Under the pieces are notes generated by a model. It was given only the letters and a program-made list of their open reading frames with translations. It was not told where the DNA came from and ran no database searches. From Planctomycetota bacterium (GTDB taxonomy: Bacteria > Planctomycetota > Planctomycetia > JALXBF01), in the NCBI GenBank assembly GCA_026991575.1, contig JALXBF010000110.1:1-54244 (forward strand): 54,244 bases of DNA, written 5' to 3'. A program made the position numbers and the translations under genes. Below are positions 8,280 to 18,200 of this stretch, one piece after another. Each line of letters begins with the position of its first letter. Position 1 is the stretch's first letter.

Positions 8280-9683
8280 ATGGCTGAGGAGATTGCCTAT
8301 CAGCGCTGCATCAACCCGGACTGCGCCGCCACGTACGCAGTCTCTGAGATTCTCTTCGGTTGTGCCCGCTGCGGTGACCTGCTGGATGTCGTCTACGACT
8401 GGGACCGCGCCGCGCTGCCCCGTCGGCTGGAGGAGTTCGAGGCGGCCTGGACGCGGCGGCACGATCCGCTGGCGTTCAGCGGCGTGTGGCGCTTTCGGGC
8501 TCTGTTGCCGTTCGTCGACCCGAAGCACGTCGTGACGATCGGCGAAGGGCAGACGCTGTTACGACCGTCGGAACGGGTAGCCCGCTACGTAGGCCTGAAG
8601 CCCGGGAGGCTTTTCCTGCAGTACGAAGGGCTGAACCCGTCGGGTAGCTTCAAGGACAACGGCATGACGGCATGTCTGTCGCACGCCAACATGGTCGGTG
8701 CCATCCGGGCTGCCTGTGCGTCGACGGGCAACACATCCGCCAGCCTGGCACTGTTCTGTGCGGCGGCCGGCTGGCCCAGCCCCATTGTCTTTGTCGGCTC
8801 CGGCAAGATCGCCTATGGCAAGCTGTCCCAGGCGCTGGAGTACGGCGCGCTGACGCTTCAGATCGTCGGCGACTTCGACGACGCGATGCGGCAGGTGCAG
8901 GCGGCCGCCAAACGGCTCAAACTCTACCTGGCCAACAGTCTGAACCCTTTCCGACTCGAAGGCCAGAAGGCAATCATGTACCGCGTGCTTGAGGCGCTGC
9001 GTTGGGAAGTCCCCGACTGGATCGTCGTGCCCGGGGGCAATCTGGGCAATGCCAGCGCGTTCGGCAAGGCGTGGCACGAACTGCGTGAACTGGGCCTGGT
9101 GGACCGCGTGCCGCGTCTGGCCATCATCAACGCAGCCGGAGCCAACACGCTCTACGCGCTCTACGAGCAACACGGACTCCGCTGGAACGGCGGTCGACCC
9201 GACATGGCGCTGGTGCAACGCTATTACGAGCAACTCGATCGCGAACGCAGGCGCGCCAACACGGTGGCCAGTGCGATCGAGATCAACCGGCCAGTCAACT
9301 TGAAGAAAGCCCTGCGCGCGCTGGACGTCTGCGACGGTGTCGTGCGCGAGGTCACCGATCAGGCTATTCTGGATGCGAAAGCACAGGTCGGCGCGGGCGG
9401 GCTCGGTTGTGAACCGGCGAGTGCTGCCGCCGTCGCCGGCGTCAAGAAGCTTGTCAGCGAACAGGTCATCGAACCTGACGATCGCGTCGTGTGCATCCTG
9501 ACCGGCCACCTGCTAAAGGACCCGATTGCCACGGTCGCCTACCACGGAACGGACCAGAAGCAGTTCGACGCCGTCTTGGGCAAACGTGGGGTCAGGCGGG
9601 CGACGTTTGCGAACCGACCGGTCGTTGTAGCCAACGACCTGGACGAGATCTTACGGGCGATCCAGCTATACGCCTTGCGCTAG
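8280..9683 (+). CDS. thrC: Threonine synthase
   Basis: This PLP enzyme converts O-phosphohomoserine to threonine, the last step of threonine synthesis. The PLP lysine is K125 in SGSFKDNGM, and the phosphate-binding [10 protein letters not shown] and [10 protein letters not shown] loops are present. The N-terminus carries a small zinc-ribbon-like set of cysteines (C10, C15, C28, C31), a known addition in many threonine synthases. The 467-residue length is on the long side but normal for that class. I prefer the ATG at 8280; a GTG at 8268 is in frame and is the alternative. dapB follows after 62 bases, placing two aspartate-family genes together. Confidence 0.93.
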
Positions 9684-9745
9684 TCGATGCCAAGGACCGT
9701 CCCCTACCCCATTAGGTTGGCGAACGCTTCAGCGAGGATACAACG

Positions 9746-10543
9746 ATGGCAGCACTCCGCATCGCAGTTCATGGTGCCTGCGGCCGCATGGGTCAACGAG
9801 TGGTCGACCTGGTTCGTCAGGCAGAAGACCTGCAGCTCGTAGCTGCTCTGGAGCATCCGACGCATGCTTGCATCGGCCGCGACATCGGCGAGGTGTGCGG
9901 TGTTGGTCCAGTTGGGGTTGTGGTCAGCAGTGAGCTTCCTGCCGGCGCGGGCCCTGAGGTGGTCGTTGACTTTTCGGTCCCGGAAGCTTCCGTGGCTCTG
10001 GCTCAACGCTGTGCCGAACTGCGTATCCCGCTGGTGGTCGCAACGACCGGGTTTAGTGCCGAGCAGCGTGAGCAGATCACCGCAGCTGCCCGGCAGATTC
10101 CCCTGTTGCTAAGCCCGAATATGAGCCTGGCGGTCAACTTGCTGATGGCCCTTGTTGAGCAGGCTGCCCGCCACCTGAAGGATGCCGACGCGGACGTGGA
10201 GATCATCGAGCGGCACCACCGCTTCAAGAAGGACGCGCCCAGTGGAACCGCCCTGGAGTTCGGCCGGCTGATTGCCGAGGCGATGGGCGGCAAGCGGTTT
10301 GTGCACGGCCGCTCGGGCTTGACCGGCGAACGGCCGCGCGATGAGATCGGATTCCACGCGCTTCGCGTGGGCGACAACGTCGGCGAACACACGATCGTGT
10401 TCGGTCTGATGGGCGAATGTCTGGAGTTCACCCATCGGGCCGGTAGCCGCGACTGTTACGCGCGCGGGGCACTGTACGCCGCCAGGTTGCTGGTCAAGCA
10501 ACCTCCCGGGCTGTACTCGATGCGCCAGCTGCTCGGCCTGTAG
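9746..10543 (+). CDS. dapB: 4-hydroxy-tetrahydrodipicolinate reductase
   Basis: DapB reduces (hydroxy)tetrahydrodipicolinate with NAD(P)H on the route to diaminopimelate and lysine. The N-terminal nucleotide-binding loop GACGRMGQR spans residues 10-18. The VVATTGF strand, the SPNMSLAVN motif and the catalytic/substrate block HHRFKKDAPSGTA (about 156-168, with the His pair and Lys) are all intact. The 265-residue length is standard. A GAGG lies about 8 bases before the ATG. It follows thrC by 62 bases and is probably co-transcribed with it. The gene is convergent with the DUF11 protein gene, whose stop is 40 bases away. Confidence 0.95.
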   Translation: MAALRIAVHGACGRMGQRVVDLVRQAEDLQLVAALEHPTHACIGRDIGEVCGVGPVGVVVSSELPAGAGPEVVVDFSVPEASVALAQRCAELRIPLVVATTGFSAEQREQITAAARQIPLLLSPNMSLAVNLLMALVEQAARHLKDADADVEIIERHHRFKKDAPSGTALEFGRLIAEAMGGKRFVHGRSGLTGERPRDEIGFHALRVGDNVGEHTIVFGLMGECLEFTHRAGSRDCYARGALYAARLLVKQPPGLYSMRQLLGL

Positions 10544-10583
10544 TGGACCAGCGTCCCGCCAGCCGCCGCAGAGCGCCCGCCGC

Positions 10584-12347
10584 TTACCGCACGCGTGCCT
10601 TGAACCACACCGCCCCCTGCTCGCCCGGCTTGATCTCGCCAGGAATGTCCCAGCGGAGCACGGTGGAGCCAGCCTTGTTGGGGCCGACCGTGAAGACGGC
10701 ATTCCGCGTGCTGCCGGAGCTCTTTTCGATGTACTCCAACCGTGGCACCAGGCTGTCCATGATCGACAGCGAGTGGACGGGTTGTTCGCCGACGTTCTTG
10801 TAGTAGATGGCAAACTCGACGATGTCCCCCGGATGGGCCACGGCCTTGTCAGCTACTTTCCACATTACGATTTCGCCCGGGCTACGTGGCGGCTCGTCGA
10901 CTTTGACCGCCATCTCGGGGCGAGCGTAGCCCTGCAGGATTCCGTTCTGGGCGGTCAGGGCCGTGTAGGCGGGCCGCCGTTCGAACTGCCACACGCGTGC
11001 CGCCTGGATCCGAGCGGTCAGCCACGCCTCTTGGCCAGCGACCAGCTCTCCGGAGGCGATGTCCAGCACGATGCGGGCGATTCCGTGAGCGGTACGGGTT
11101 GCATGCAGGAAGTCGACACGGCTGATCGCCGAGGTCACATACCGCTGGCGAGCGATGGCGGGCCGTTTCTCGCCGCGTTCCAGCGCCACGTCGCTGCGGC
11201 GCCGCGCCACGGCGGCCAGCTTGCGCGATTCAAGCTGGCGACGACCTTCCGTGCGGAGCACCGTCGCGGTGGCCAGGCTCAGACGGCCCACGGCTCGCCG
11301 GGTGGCCCCGCGGATGGCGATATAGCGGGGGGCATAGACGCACACGGGCGCCGCAGGCACGGATCGCAGTCGGTTCTCTGTCGAGTAGAACCCCACGGTT
11401 TCGCTGGGCTCAAGCCCGTGCGTGACGCCGGCAGCGTCACGGCCAGCACGCGGTGCGCGGTCGTCCCCGTCGCAAACGTAGCTGTAGTCCAGCTTGAGCG
11501 GCCGGAACACGGAAGGGTCCACCCCCCGAGCAGGGGCCGACGCCCACGGATGGGGTACCGGGAATGCCGATGGCATGCTCAGCCGTTCCACCGCATCGAA
11601 CGAGGCCTGTTTCAGGCCGCTTGGTGGGCGCAACGACCGTTGCTCCGGGGCGCGCGTCGGTCGGACGTGGCCTCGGTGGACAACGGGGGGCTTGGGAAGC
11701 CAGTCAGCGTCCTGCCGCTCGTAGACGCGCGTGCCCACCCTCATGATCAGCACGGGCATCCCCATCGTTTCGGCCAGCAGCAGCGGGTCAACCCCTACAC
11801 GGGCATCGATCTCAGGCATCTCGTCCGGAGGATAAGCGATCGGAATCGCCTGGTCCGGTCGCTCGAGTGTGACCACCTTGGTCACCAGCATCTCCTCGCG
11901 TACCAGGGCGAGGTCGGCATCCGACAACGCGACCGTGACTGGAAACTCCCACGGATCTACCTCCGGGGGTACGTGGACCGGTCGAAGCACCTGGATCGTC
12001 GGGCATACCACGGTCGGCTCGCCAGCAACCGTGACGTGGCAACGGAATACATACGTCTGGCCAACTTGAAGCCCGATCTGAAATGGGACGGTCTCTTCCA
12101 CCCAACCGGACGGCGTTAGCAGCTCCACGCGGGTTCCGACGGGCGCAAGCCAGCGGACCACGACCACGGCATCTTCGGGGGCTGTTGCTGGTGTCGTGGT
12201 CGCAACGTCTGGCCCGGCTGCGACGGCGGCTACGACGGTGCCGAACAGAGCGGCCAGGAGGAGAAGCGGCCTGGTGATCAAGGGGGGGTGTGGGACCATC
12301 CCGATCGGTCCTGGTTGCTCAGCGGGCACATGCTGCCGTACGCTCAT
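10584..12347 (-). CDS. Exported DUF11-domain protein with an N-terminal domain shared with the next lipoprotein
   Basis: This is a predicted secreted or surface protein of 587 aa. A hydrophobic signal segment lies at about residues 26-44 (long if translation starts at 12347; an ATG at 12299 gives a more usual signal peptide). Residues about 60-210 match, by eye, the lipoprotein encoded just upstream: both show an AP-x-G-x-x-V strand, a Q/G-x-x-Y strand, P-T-(L/I)-(E/Q)-V, then VTKV(V/I) and a (V/I)GVDP-like/I(V/M)RVG ending. The middle is Arg-rich, with a CDGDDR motif. The C-terminus (about 492-587) is a DUF11-type beta-sandwich with PGDIVEFAIYYKNVG and the MDSLVPRLEYI strand. DUF11 repeats occur in large surface proteins, notably in planctomycetes. 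A GAGGG precedes the ATG at 12347. The role is unknown; it is likely structural in the envelope. Confidence 0.75.
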   Translation of the reverse strand: MSVRQHVPAEQPGPIGMVPHPPLITRPLLLLAALFGTVVAAVAAGPDVATTTPATAPEDAVVVVRWLAPVGTRVELLTPSGWVEETVPFQIGLQVGQTYVFRCHVTVAGEPTVVCPTIQVLRPVHVPPEVDPWEFPVTVALSDADLALVREEMLVTKVVTLERPDQAIPIAYPPDEMPEIDARVGVDPLLLAETMGMPVLIMRVGTRVYERQDADWLPKPPVVHRGHVRPTRAPEQRSLRPPSGLKQASFDAVERLSMPSAFPVPHPWASAPARGVDPSVFRPLKLDYSYVCDGDDRAPRAGRDAAGVTHGLEPSETVGFYSTENRLRSVPAAPVCVYAPRYIAIRGATRRAVGRLSLATATVLRTEGRRQLESRKLAAVARRRSDVALERGEKRPAIARQRYVTSAISRVDFLHATRTAHGIARIVLDIASGELVAGQEAWLTARIQAARVWQFERRPAYTALTAQNGILQGYARPEMAVKVDEPPRSPGEIVMWKVADKAVAHPGDIVEFAIYYKNVGEQPVHSLSIMDSLVPRLEYIEKSSGSTRNAVFTVGPNKAGSTVLRWDIPGEIKPGEQGAVWFKARVR

Positions 12348-12420
12348 AACCGCACCCTCATTGCTCTGTGAGCTGTCACCGGCATGAAGACGGCGCGCGG
12401 TGGCAGACGAGTAAAACAGT

Positions 12421-12460
12421 GTGAGAAAAAGAGGGAGCAGGAGCCACCGTGCTTCCTGCC
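12421..12460 (-). terminator. Possible rho-independent terminator after the lipoprotein gene
   Basis: Read on the minus strand, a GCAGGA/TCCTGC stem (12459-12454 with 12442-12437) is extended inward by a further GC pair with one bulged base. It is followed, after a short CCCTC, by five consecutive T residues (12430-12426 region). It sits about 130 bases after the lipoprotein stop and about 75 bases before the DUF11 gene start. That placement would separate or attenuate transcription between the two genes. The T-run starts about 6 bases after the stem, which is slightly far. Confidence 0.4.
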
Positions 12461-12584
12461 CCCCCCTCTCGGCATCCCTCCTGGGCTGGTCGACCTTCGC
12501 TCGGCGTGCTAGCTACTCCGTTGGGGCACTTCGGAGTCGTCGACCCAGCAAGAGGAGACGGGCCCTCCGTGGCCCACGACGACG

Positions 12585-13349
12585 TCATTGCTTCCGTGTC
12601 GTCGCCGTTGCTGCGTTGACCTTGCCCTTCGGCTGAGCGTCCTTGCCTTCGGCCGAGATGGGCAGGATCAAGCCATGTGCGTCGTTGTCGGCCTGGTCGC
12701 CATAGACCGGAGCGGCGTGCGGAAGCTCCAGGTCGATGCTGCCCATGCGCACGATGACCAGGATCGTACCGCGGCGGTCAGCTTCGGCAATCGGGTCAAC
12801 ACCCGGGGCGAGTCGGGTTGAGACCAGCGTTTCGACGCCGGCAATCGCCAGTTCCTGATACTCCGGGTCGGGCAGGTAGATGACCTTGGTCACGTAGTTC
12901 CCGGCCCGTACCTGGTCAAAATCCTCATCCGTGAACTCGATCGGAACCGCATTGTGCGCCAGGTACGCAGCACTGGAAGGCGCCGCCGGCGCCACCTCGA
13001 GCGTCGGGTACAGCTCCAGCCCCTCGTGGCCGGGGATATCGGTCAGCTTCAGCCGGTAGACCGCCCCCTGCTCGAAGTTGAACCGGCCAGGCACCGTAAT
13101 CTGGCCTTCGGCAAAGGCCTTTGTCTGGCCGTCGCCGACCTGCCAGCCCACCTTCATCCCCTCGGGTGCGACGAAATAGACCTGAGTCCGCTCAACGGGG
13201 AAACGGCGCTGTTGGCCTGCCGTGCCGTGGAAGGCGGTCTGAATAACGCCACTGATCGGATGGTGGCCAACTGTGGCCTGCTTCTGCGTCAGGCAGCCCA
13301 GGCTGAAAAGCAGCGGGGCTGCGGCCAACAAGGGTACGACCCGTCTCAT
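12585..13349 (-). CDS. Lipoprotein of unknown function, paralogous to the DUF11 protein N-terminus
   Basis: This 254-residue protein opens with a textbook lipoprotein signal: MRR, a hydrophobic core, then a lipobox LFSLGC with the acylated Cys near residue 19. The start at 13349 is chosen because GAGGAGGAG lies just upstream and the signal peptide then begins at residue 1. A longer frame upstream has no such support. After a short linker comes the same domain as in residues about 60-210 of the DUF11 protein: APEGMKV, a VYRLKL strand, [25 protein letters not shown], and a GVDP...ILVIVRMG ending. The fold is probably mostly beta. I do not recognise the family. It is divergent from a secreted LolA-like gene. 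Confidence 0.75.
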
Positions 13350-13504
13350 CGCTCCTCCTCGGTCCCCCAATGGACCGTTGCCTTGAGTGCTGCCGAACCA
13401 AGTGTGTGTCCCAGCCTGCCGATGCGGCCCTGGCTCATGGCTACGCAGCGACGCGGCAGTCGCGCAAGCCACCGCCGAACCTCCCGGGCCGGCCTGCGTA
13501 TCGA

Positions 13505-13565
13505 CTGGTGATCGCGGCCACGTATGGCCGCGACCAGCCTGACTTGTGTTTCCAGCGGTTTTTTT
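13505..13565 (+). promoter_or_regulatory. Hairpin and T-run in the divergent promoter region
   Basis: A perfect 9-bp stem (13512-13520 with 13525-13533, loop CGTA) is extended by four more pairs (13505-13508 with 13534-13537) across a 3-base bulge. Twenty-one bases later there is a run of seven T (13559-13565). It lies upstream of both the leftward lipoprotein gene and the rightward LolA-like gene, so it is not an ordinary end-of-gene terminator. It could be an operator-like dyad or a leader hairpin. The function is inferred from position only. Confidence 0.35.
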
Positions 13566-13633
13566 CGGCAACTGAACTAGCGGACTTTCGAAGAATCCGT
13601 CAGAATCTTCAGCCCCCGCGCAAGGGTTCCACC

Positions 13634-14926
13634 ATGCAGGCTCGCTGCAACCGTCCCAGCCGCGCCACCTGGCCTGCCCGTCGGCTCATGGTCGCCATCG
13701 CCACGCTCTGCCTGTGCACCTCCCCAAGCCACGCACAGACCACAAAAGAGACACCGACAGAACCAACGAAGAAGGCAGCGCAGCAAAAGGCGGAGAACCG
13801 ACCGACAACCACGCAACCAACCAATCGACCGGCACCAGATAGTCCAACCGCACAGGCGGGCCAAGCTGCTGCTGGCCGTCAGAGCGGCCTGCGATCGGAG
13901 GCAGAGATTCGCACGAACACGGAAGTTCAGAGGCTGCTGGACGAGATCGAAGCTCACCTGCGCAAGTTAGAGTGGCTGGCGACGGATATCCGCCAGGAGA
14001 TGACCCTCAGAGGGTTCACGTTCACCGCCCGGGGCCGCTACATTGTGGGTCCGAACAACCTGATGCGGCTCGAGTACAAGGTGAAGCTGTCCGACGTTGA
14101 GGGCGAGTTGCTGGAAGTCTGCGACGGACGCGACCAATGGCACGTCGAATCGATCCTCGACGTTACGAAAGTCGAACACCTGAACCTGGAGGAGTGCGGC
14201 CAGATCCTAAACGATCAGGACTTCGATGAGCAGCAACGTCAGGCTTTCATGGATGCTCGCGGCTTGAACGGCCTGGCGCCGTTTGTCGACGCGCTGGCAG
14301 AGTTCTTCGTGTTCAACCGAGTGGAAGAAAAGCAGTGGCAGGGCAAAAAGGTCCTGGTCGCACACGGAACCTGGAACGAAGCCCGGCTGGGTGGCAAGCG
14401 GGCCGAGCCTGAGGCCGGCGACGACCAGGACCAGCAACAGACATCAGCCATTCCGCAGGCTGAAGAGCGGGAACGGTACTCGCTGTTGAACCTGCCACCG
14501 GAGATGCCTACGGCCATCACAGTCTGGATCGATCCTGAGCTGAAGTGGATTCACCGCGTGGAAATGGTCGCCGAGCGCGCCCCGAAGAACCGCCCAAGCC
14601 GCCTGGTGTTGGAACTGTCCAATCCCCAGTTTGACAAGCCCTTTGAACGGACCCTCTTCAGCTACCGGCCCCCCGACGATGTCAAGCCGATCGATCGAAC
14701 GCCTGTCGTGGTCGAGACGCTTCAGGTAATCCTGCAACAGCTCAAGAACCAGAAGCAGCAGGCCGGCACGCGCCAGCCCGCTACGGCGTCGGGTGCAACG
14801 GGCAGCGGCCTGCTGGGACCGACATCGCCGTCTGCATCTGGCCCGGCCGGCGCTCAGGCTAAACCTTCCGCCGAGCAGAAGCGTTCCCCGGCAGCGAAGC
14901 AGGAGCAAGAAGCGCCTAAGCCCTAG
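13634..14926 (+). CDS. Secreted protein with LolA/LppX-like character
   Basis: This 430-residue exported protein has a signal peptide at residues 1-34, ending in a SHA-Q type cleavage site. A Thr/Gln/Pro/Ala-rich low-complexity linker follows (about 35-80). The central part (about 100-370) looks like a LolA/LppX-type half-barrel: an amphipathic helix, then alternating strands such as [11 protein letters not shown] and NLMRLEYKV, a WHVESI-type strand, and [19 protein letters not shown]. Proteins of this fold carry lipids or lipoproteins through the periplasm. The tail (about 385-430) is again low in complexity and rich in Gln, Ala, Pro and Lys. An AAGGG lies about 10 bases before the ATG. The fold assignment is by eye and moderate; planctomycetes carry many such proteins. 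Confidence 0.65.
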
Positions 14927-15278
14927 CATTCCCGCAGCAGCGACCGGCGGGGATGGATCATTCGCTGGCCACGTCCCGCGGCCCGATCGGCTGTGCACGC
15001 TTGCTTCGACCGCGCCGGGCACGGCACGTGTACGCGGATCACCCCCCTCTCCGGCCCGCAGGTCCGATCGGCGTCTGCAGCAACTCACACCGGCACTGAC
15101 GGCGCAAGAGGCCCGACGCGGCGCTGCGCACCGCAGTCCCGGCTCGGGTGCCGCCCGTCGGGTTCCGTGTGCTGTGACCTCGGCCATCTATGATTAATGA
15201 GTTCAACGGCGGCTGTGTCGCTCCCAAACTACGGTGCCACGGTGACGAGGTCCTCAGGAAAGCCTGCTGGGGCAAGAG
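14927..15278. other. Intergenic region upstream of ileS
   Basis: These 352 bases lack a supportable gene. A TATGAT hexamer at 15189-15194 inside the only AT-richer patch could be the -10 of the ileS promoter, but no -35 is seen at the usual spacing. I looked for a T-box leader because ileS follows. The conserved antiterminator core (GGTGG-ACCGCG type) is absent and there is no leader terminator with a T-run. Confidence 0.35.
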
Positions 15279-18200
15279 ATGTTCCACAAGGTGGATGCCT
15301 ATCCGAATCTGGTAGCGGGCGAACACAAAGTTCTCCAGTTCTGGGCGGACACGAAGGCGTTCGAAGTCCTGCGACAACGCAACGCCGGCAAACCGCGGTG
15401 GTCGTTTCTGGATGGGCCCATCACCGCCAACAACCCAATGGGCGTACACCACGCCTGGGGTAGAACGCTGAAGGACGCCTATCACCGCTACTTCGCCATG
15501 ACCGGCCATGAGTGCCGCTACCAGAACGGCTTCGACTGTCAGGGGCTGTGGGTGGAGGTCGAAGTCGAACGGGAACTGGGCTTTCGGTCCAAGCGGGACA
15601 TCGAGGCTTATGGCCTGGAACGGTTCATCCGCAAGTGCAAGGAGCGTGTCTGGAAGTATTCGAAGATCCAGACCGAGCAGTCCATCCGGCTGGGCTACTG
15701 GATGGACTGGGAGAACTCCTACTACACCATGTCCCCCGAGAACAACTACGCCATCTGGGCATTTCTGAAGAAATGCCACCAGCGTGGCAAGGTGTACAAG
15801 GGGGTGGATGCCATGCCCTGGTGCCCGCGGTGCGGCACGGGCATCTCTGAACAAGAACGCAAGGAAGGCTACAAGACCGTGGTCGACGACGCCGTCTTCG
15901 TACGGTTCCCCCTGGTTGACCGACCGGACGAGTACTTGCTGGTTTGGACCACGACGCCATGGACCCTGGCAGCCAACGTCGCCGCGGCGGTGCACCCGAA
16001 GCTGCCGTATGTACGCGTGAAACAGGGCAACGCCATCTATTACCTGATGCGTGCCCGCCTGTCGGTGTTAAGTTCCGCTGAACCGTACGAGGTGCTGGAC
16101 GAGTTCCCGGGGGCCGAGCTCGTGGGGCTTCGCTACCGCGGGCCGTTCGACGATCTGGAGGCGGCGGCTCCGGCCCGGGATCACCACCGGGTGATCGCAT
16201 GGGACGAGGTCACGGAGACGGAGGGAACGGGCATTGTGCACATCGCACCCGGCTGCGGCAAGGAAGACTTCGATCTTGCCCAACAACACGGCTTACCTGT
16301 CCTGGCTCCGATCGATGATGAGGGGCGGTACGTGTCGGGCTACGAACCGTTCACGGGCAAGTTTGCGGGGGATGTTACCGAGGAGGTCTTCGAATGGTTG
16401 AAAGCGCGGGGCTTGTTCTACCGAGCGGAAAAGTACCGCCACGACTACCCGCACTGCTGGCGGTGCGGCACGCCGCTGTTGTTCCGGGTCGTTGATGAGT
16501 GGTTCATCCGCATGGACTGGCGGGACGAAATCAAGCAGGTCGCCAAGCAGATCCGGTGGATCCCCGACTTCGGCCTCCAGCTGGAGCTGGACTGGTTGAC
16601 CAACATGGGCGACTGGATGATCTCCAAGAAACGCTACTGGGGACTGGCCCTACCAATTTTCGAGTGCAAGAAATGTGGCACCTTCGACGTGATCGGTAGC
16701 CGCGAGGAGTTGAAGGAACGCTGTGTGGCAGGATGGGAGGAATTCGAAGGCGACCCGCAGAACCCGAATTCCCCCCACCGACCGTGGATCGACCACGTCC
16801 GGATCGCTTGTCCGAACTGCGGTGAGCCGACTCCGCGGATCCCGGATGTAGGCAACCCGTGGCTCGATGCCGGGATCGTTGCGTATTCGACTGTTGGCTA
16901 CTTCACCGATCGCGAGTACTGGCGCCGGTGGATCCCGGCCGATCTGATCCTGGAATGCTTCCCTGGCCAGTTTCGCAACTGGTTCTACGCTTTGCTTGCG
17001 ATGAGCACGATGATGGAGAACATTCCGCCTACGCGCACCGTGCTCGGGCACGCGCTGGTGCGGGATGAAAAAGGCGAGGAGATGCACAAGTCCAAGGGCA
17101 ACGCGATCTGGTTCGATGACGCGGCCGAGCGGATGGGCGCCGACGTAATGCGGTGGATCTACTGTCGCCAGAATCCGGTCCAGAACTTGAATTTCGGCTA
17201 TTCGGTGGGGCGTGATGTGGAGCGATCCGTCTTTCGCGCCCTATGGAACACGTACCGCTTCTTCTGCGAGTACGCCCGGCTGGACGAGTTCGATCCGTCG
17301 TTACCCACGATCCCGGTGTCCGACCGGCCTGAGCTGGACCGCTGGATCCTTTCCGAACTTCAGGATCTCATTCGCTCCGCGCACGAATGTTGGGCCAACT
17401 ACGACCACCACCCATTCGTACGGCGCGCCGAGCAATTCATCCAGGATCAGCTTTCCAATTGGTACGTGCGCCGTAGCCGTCGCCGCTTCTGGGCCAAGCG
17501 CGGTGAGGACGACCGGTCCAAGTGGGCAGCCTACCAGACGCTCTACGAGGTACTGCTGACGTTGACCAAGCTGCTGGCACCGGTCATCCCGTTCCTGACG
17601 GAGCGGATGTACCAGAATCTGGTGCACGGGCGCGACCTGATGCAATGGGGCGAACCCGGTGGCATCGATCCAGCCTCGGTGCAGCCGGACCCTGCCGCCG
17701 AACCCCCAAACAGCGTCCACCACTGCACGTTCCCCGAAGTGAACGAGGCACTTGTCGATCGCCAGCTAAACGCGCAAATGGCCCTGATTCAAGAGATCGT
17801 TACCGCCGCCCACGCGCTGCGTGAAGCGGCCGGGCACCGGGTACGGCAGCCGCTAAGCACGCTAAAGGTAGCACCGGTCAGCGGTTGGCAGCAGTGGGCG
17901 CGCGAGGCGGTCCAACGCATGGCCGACGTGCTGCGCGAGGAATTGAACGTTAAGGAGATTGCCATAGAGGATGGCCCCGGGGTGGGTGCGCTGGCGGCGG
18001 TACCAAACCAGCGAGCGCTGAAGAAACGGTTCGGCCGACGCGCACCGGATGTCGCCGACCTCGTGGCCCGGCTCCAGCCGGAGGAGATCGAGCGACTGCT
18101 CCGAGGCGAAGAACTGCACGTCGAGGTTGGTGCGGAGACGGTGACGATCAGCCGGAGCGACATCCACGTGGTACTCGCCGACGCCACGCAGTGGCACGTC

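Follow-up and report, generated by a model that had tools for sequence, protein, structure and literature searches.

The wall of the Planctomycetia is rich in protein and their mode of division is unusual, and many of the genes behind both traits are unidentified. In the Chlamydiae, a phylum related to the Planctomycetota and having an unusual envelope, a lipoprotein and a DUF11-bearing envelope protein, OmcA and OmcB, are encoded side by side. The DUF11 domain has been renamed CLIPPER, an isopeptide domain characterised by a Lys-Asn bond and a catalytic Asp, and is found mostly in the stalks of fibrillar adhesins (PMC12617251). Cysteine-rich wall proteins with a YTV motif are reported solely from the Planctomycetales (PMC8567305), and peptidoglycan and division genes are reported to be dispensable in Planctopirus limnophila, for which genome-wide transposon data and genetic tools are available (PMC10632474). 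The parts of these last two papers that are drawn upon here fit with a lineage that has rebuilt its envelope. The genes considered below are not discussed in those parts, and a literature search retrieved no study of them.

The DNA analysed, hereafter the window, is a stretch of 54,244 nucleotides from a member of the Planctomycetota (GenBank assembly GCA_026991575.1, contig JALXBF010000110.1), in which a lipoprotein gene (A) lies beside a gene encoding a larger exported protein with a DUF11 domain (B-C), and is divergent from a further gene (D) (Table 1). The positions of the first two genes were as given in a preliminary description of this DNA, and a lipobox was predicted in A, which that description calls lipid-anchored. 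The reading frame of gene A extends from an ATG at 13349 to a stop at 12585, with a purine-rich ribosome-binding site ahead of the ATG. A promoter and terminator scan performed no better than shuffles, and an Rfam search of positions 9500-15500 returned no match. A contig scan found relatives of gene A, with 46-76% identity over the matched stretch, in 32 contigs, almost all of which bear planctomycete titles, and copy A of the shared domain carries a near-invariant STRL.PG.DPIAEA..RG motif.

Table 1. Genes and domains of the A-B-C-D locus in the window.
Feature	Position (strand)	Details
Gene A, lipoprotein, copy A of shared domain	12585..13349 (-)	254 aa; lipobox LFSLGC, Cys19
Copy A of shared domain	12735..13196 (-)	residues 52-205; hhalign E 3e-31 to copy B
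Fused gene B-C ('DUF11 protein')	10584..12347 (-)	587 aa; N-terminal hydrophobic export signal
Copy B of shared domain	11730..12164 (-)	residues 62-206; long tree branch
N-terminal subdomain of C	11298..11495 (-)	residues 285-350; YVCDGDD ... PAAPVCVYAPRY; covarying Cys292/Cys336
DUF11/CLIPPER-like domain of C	10587..10886 (-)	residues 488-587; Lys497 and Asp531; without final Asn strand
Gene D, conserved neighbour divergent from A	13634..14926 (+)	signal peptide; start codon inferred; weak LolA-like profile match

From an alignment made by eye, the preliminary description had proposed that residues about 60-210 of the DUF11 protein correspond to most of the neighbouring lipoprotein, and had known no named family for the domain so shared. 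Both points held. In BLASTP, the stretch 64-206 of the DUF11 protein aligned with residues 57-204 of A (26% identity, E 2e-5 as a single comparison), and all of the motifs that had been listed, namely AP-x-G-x-x-V, a Y strand, PT(I/L)xV, D-x-D/DEDF, VTKV(V/I), GVDP and MRVG/VRMG, lie within this alignment. A profile of 25 A relatives was aligned by hhalign with a profile of 27 B relatives over 151 columns at a probability of 99.86% (E 3.2e-31), hence the likeness of A and B is far beyond chance. This comparison confirmed, at the level of sequence, that copies A and B are one homologous exported domain, for which there is no name. No model covering the shared domain was found when the window proteins were searched with Pfam and NCBIfam, or when Pfam was applied to 52 aligned A/B members, and no solved protein resembling it was retrieved by a sequence search of the PDB. 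Weak Pfam matches to an HCV NS3 protease, CoA_binding, an Apicomplexa microprotein and TraP, each confined to one or two members, were judged to be chance.

The AlphaFold2 model of copy A (mean pLDDT 85.6) is beta-rich with three helices. In the model of the fused protein, copy B (pLDDT >90 over most of the domain), residues 285-350 of C and the DUF11 part (about 490-587) were predicted confidently, the stretches between them being low. Foldseek searches with the A-domain model gave nothing lower than an E of 0.07 (VHL), and VIA-align gave a best Z of 4.9 with none at Z >=5, the scattered matches being common beta-sandwiches; for the CnaB/transthyretin-like beta-sandwich fold, CnaB and pilin domains matched with Z scores of roughly 4.0-4.3 across ~80 residues. 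The fold search of the fused protein was effective only from about residue 325 on, so that copy B may yet have a known fold.

In all, 93 loci were examined: besides the window's own, the contig scan supplied 32, and 60 more were fetched. In most relatives, A is followed on one strand by a separate B, which carries the second copy of the domain, and then by a separate C, which carries DUF11; the DUF11 protein of the window is a fusion of B and C. The fusion to DUF11 had been recognised in the preliminary description, but the notion of a duplicate that grew a DUF11 domain did not stand, since most relatives encode B and C separately. A adjoins B in 91 of the 93 loci (a contig end and a different fusion account for the remaining two), the gene pair being conserved together in other planctomycetes. 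Of the 86 loci that extend far enough, 85 have C after A-B on the same strand. The single departure, L032 (L032:1005-6842), encodes A and B without C within about 5 kb downstream, C having been either relocated or lost. B and C are fused in the window lineage, in families f2, f4, f5, f8 and f90, in one f3 genome and in L002/L023, and on a quick tree of C the split or fused state changed at least four times.

The history of the two copies was inferred from a quick maximum-likelihood tree of 180 domains, in which one branch (SH-aLRT 100) parted 91/91 A from 89/89 B. As A and B fall on two sides of a single branch, one duplication before the radiation of the sampled class is indicated, and on this phylogeny A and B are sister clades from one duplication older than the sampled Planctomycetia. 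The local tandem duplication previously suggested was therefore not borne out. The evolution of A is slow. In the window protein (10584-12347), the branch of copy B is among the longest in the family, at 2.65 changes per column, although the adjoining A is well conserved. A simple pattern scan, which many A copies failed to pass, predicted a lipobox in many others and in many C proteins that have a gene of their own. Predicted export signals were found for what had been termed a larger surface protein, whilst a location at the surface goes beyond these signals and the lipobox. In many lineages, such as L008 (L008:5701-7065) and others with separate B and C, A ends in a strongly conserved Pro/Gly-rich tail, YGMP..GTPIGLPGPPHIPLG..AGL..H...N.T, a tail that the window and families f2, f4, f5 and f8 lack. 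At L030 (L030:2929-7656), the A domain forms part of a 1576-aa protein that also carries an M56 (BlaR1) peptidase and a secretin domain, and two further genomes have A-domain matches within open frames 1634 and 1709 aa long (G052:C178:76933-77421 and G274:C1:5091318-5093399).

Within a phylum-wide draw of genomes, the A profile was detected in 37 of 37 Planctomycetia and in 0 of 255 genomes of other classes, and identical counts were obtained with the N-terminal subdomain of C; the first-look candidates scored per genome were limited in number, such that very distant copies outside the class could be missed. D was present in 36 of these 37 Planctomycetia, with weak matches in two further genomes. 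A class-wide draw returned A from 294 of 298 Planctomycetia, in nearly every case as a single A accompanied by a single B, and the four genomes without A were also missing C, one of them retaining D. The survey covered the Planctomycetota, other phyla being covered by the contig scan only. Nearly all of the sampled Planctomycetia carry A, B, C and D as one single-copy locus, with A and C confined to this class among the genomes of the phylum-wide draw, and the locus is a strong candidate for part of the unusual cell envelope of the Planctomycetia. The preliminary description had passed over this class-wide distribution, as well as C as a separate unit and the divergent gene D.

Against the window protein, PF01345 scored 19 bits (cut-off 24.6) and TIGR01451 scored 23 (cut-off 24). 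The relative in L008, from Lacipirellula limnantheis, was above both DUF11 cut-offs (31.5 bits for PF01345), and a DUF11 match was obtained in 21/21 aligned C regions at E values up to 1, the best being 6.7e-10; the DUF11 part of the window protein is real, though weak in the window copy. The DUF11 part of the fused model matched PDB 9IFR, an adhesin of Acinetobacter silvestris, with a Z of 8.6 over 91 residues (2.2 A), many Ig-like domains being about equal, and its fold matches include pilins. When the last ~100 residues of C were compared with canonical DUF11 domains of the same class, columns 1-84 of 100 aligned (E 1e-15) and the rest had no counterpart. It is the bonding-Asn strand that is missing: 81 of the 82 C proteins end before this strand, and the remaining one is only 7 residues longer; the C terminus almost always reads ...F-x-x-x-V-[RL]. 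The isopeptide Lys and Asp are nonetheless invariant (82/82), the Lys aligning with the bonding Lys of 9IFR and the Asp within one residue of the published numbering.

A comparison set of 108 distinct canonical DUF11 copies from Planctomycetia included 94 with a residue at each of the Lys, Asp and Asn positions. In these, Lys and Asn went together, both being present in 29, Lys only in 8, Asn only in 14 and neither in 43 (p 5e-7, a value that is merely indicative given that the copies are mutually related), and Asp was present in 36 of the 37 copies with Lys compared with 10 of the 57 without it. Other contigs of the window's genome encode two tandem canonical DUF11 proteins (G000:C36:52808-54070 and G000:C69:41818-43077), in which some domains have the Lys/Asn pair and some do not, and one of these proteins has a lipobox-like start.

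A possible substitute for the absent Asn is located in the N-terminal subdomain of C, where a strand reading P[ST]N-x-V-C-(I/V)-Y-A-P-R-F has Asn in 77 of 82 proteins. In the VIA-align matches a model range of about 315-325 to 587 was aligned on one target domain, which is compatible with this strand packing against the DUF11 part in the model. In the same column the window has Ala (Ala333), L084 and L087 have Thr, L085 has Ser and L110 has Pro, the Lys and Asp being kept. A permutation test with the N-terminal subdomain joined behind DUF11 did not extend the alignment (E 1.2e-15 vs 9.7e-16), and an isolated N-terminal segment aligned Asn to Asn at E 0.48, the strand being so short that this comparison has little power. 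Given these substitutions and the permutation test without significant extension, the sequences leave an isopeptide bond in C, with the sheet completed by something else, as a possible feature. That C is a CLIPPER domain minus its own bonding strand, completed either by the N-terminal subdomain of C (a circular permutation) or by another protein of the locus, seems rather improbable; if true, a covalent isopeptide link would close or cross-link a Planctomycetia-wide envelope complex, as a natural counterpart of the split 'catcher'. The tail of A, with its AGL..H...N.T module, was also considered as a donor strand in trans, and was rejected as a general mechanism because it is missing in the window and in the four families named above, whose C proteins keep the Lys and Asp. 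A pair of cysteines in C (Cys292/Cys336 in the window) was found with both residues in 60 proteins, neither in 18 and one in 4, being concordant in 78 of 82, although only 4 independent pairs were available on supported branches, too few for a formal tree-based test. The joint presence or absence of these cysteines suggests a disulfide between them and an oxidising location.

Gene D is divergent from and next to A in 27 relatives as well as in the window. No Pfam or NCBIfam model matched D, those of LolA included. When the D profile was compared with solved structures, the two best matches were LolA proteins (E 0.0023 and 0.0046), with a best-matched stretch of only about 30 positions near the end. 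On this evidence the product of D is best called LolA-like rather than LolA.

The co-occurrence in a class-restricted locus of an exported, often lipid-anchored and slowly evolving A, its paralogue B, an Ig-like C and a LolA-like D points to a structural part of the envelope. We therefore propose, tentatively and at somewhat less than even confidence, that the four products constitute an uncharacterised lipid-anchored envelope complex, serving as a structural or anchoring element of the Planctomycetia. In such a complex, A would be fixed in a membrane through its lipid, B would be exported, and the paralogous A and B domains would probably pair together, as judged from their paralogy. C would supply its Ig-like domain as a rigid post or linker, stiffened by the disulfide and possibly by an isopeptide bond, whilst the LolA-like D may act as a chaperone or delivery factor for those members that carry a lipid anchor. 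The complex as a whole would sit between the outer membrane and the protein-rich wall of the cell.

The same proteins could instead build an adhesive or surface structure of the Planctomycetia, such as a fibre, a holdfast or the crateriform structure, rather than contribute to the wall itself. The association of CLIPPER domains with fibrillar-adhesin stalks (PMC12617251), the pilins and 9IFR among the fold matches of the DUF11 part, the Pro/Gly-rich conserved tail on A in many lineages and the class-restricted distribution all agree with this explanation. We nevertheless consider it unlikely, as there is a single DUF11 domain at the extreme C-terminus and no tandem stalk, no adhesion or sorting domain was found, and near-invariant single-copy presence with slow evolution of A is unlike variable adhesins.

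It may also be that the locus is a lipoprotein-handling system of the periplasm and outer membrane, in which D would act in the manner of LolA and A, B and C would serve as a receptor or in client capture. This is in keeping with the LolA proteins at the head of D's solved-structure matches, with the lipoboxes on A and often on C, and with the conserved junction at which D diverges from A. However, D went unrecognised as LolA by Pfam and NCBIfam, A and B have no sequence resemblance to LolB, and no role in Lol transport is known for DUF11, making this a doubtful explanation. A secretin-linked export or sensing system that includes the A-B-C locus, to which the joined domains of L030 and the two long frames might point, is very improbable, as such fusion is rare and limited to few genomes whereas A-B-C is near universal, and there is no secretin or M56 gene in the conserved A-B-C neighbourhood.

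The proposed structural complex has consequences for the search for Planctomycetia wall and division genes, for which a single-copy, all-or-none, class-wide locus whose genes A, B and D contain no named domain offers a direct candidate, and the hypothesis is testable in Planctopirus limnophila. The locus additionally provides a new domain family for Pfam and a conserved CLIPPER variant without the last strand.

Among the described systems, OmcA/OmcB was considered because a lipoprotein gene adjoins a DUF11 gene, and the window likewise pairs a small lipoprotein gene with an adjoining gene for an exported DUF11 protein. OmcB, however, is cysteine-rich and has several DUF11 domains, as opposed to 4 Cys in 587 residues and one DUF11 in the window protein, for which Pfam at E values up to 10 returned no OmcB model and only DUF11 with one spurious match; on these grounds membership of an OmcA/OmcB-like pair was rejected. 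To our knowledge, the shared A/B domain has no counterpart in OmcA. The YTV proteins have, as reported, a phyletic pattern similar to that of the A-B-C locus, but they are cysteine-rich, unlike A, B and C. Gene D resembles LolA in being exported and in its two best structure matches, differing in that it falls below Pfam and NCBIfam recognition, is nearly class-restricted and matches over a short stretch. C differs from CLIPPER as represented by PF01345 and 9IFR, in that it ends without the final bonding-Asn strand, comprises one domain instead of a tandem series and is preceded by a class-specific subdomain, yet it shares with CLIPPER the fold match, the bonding Lys and the catalytic Asp.
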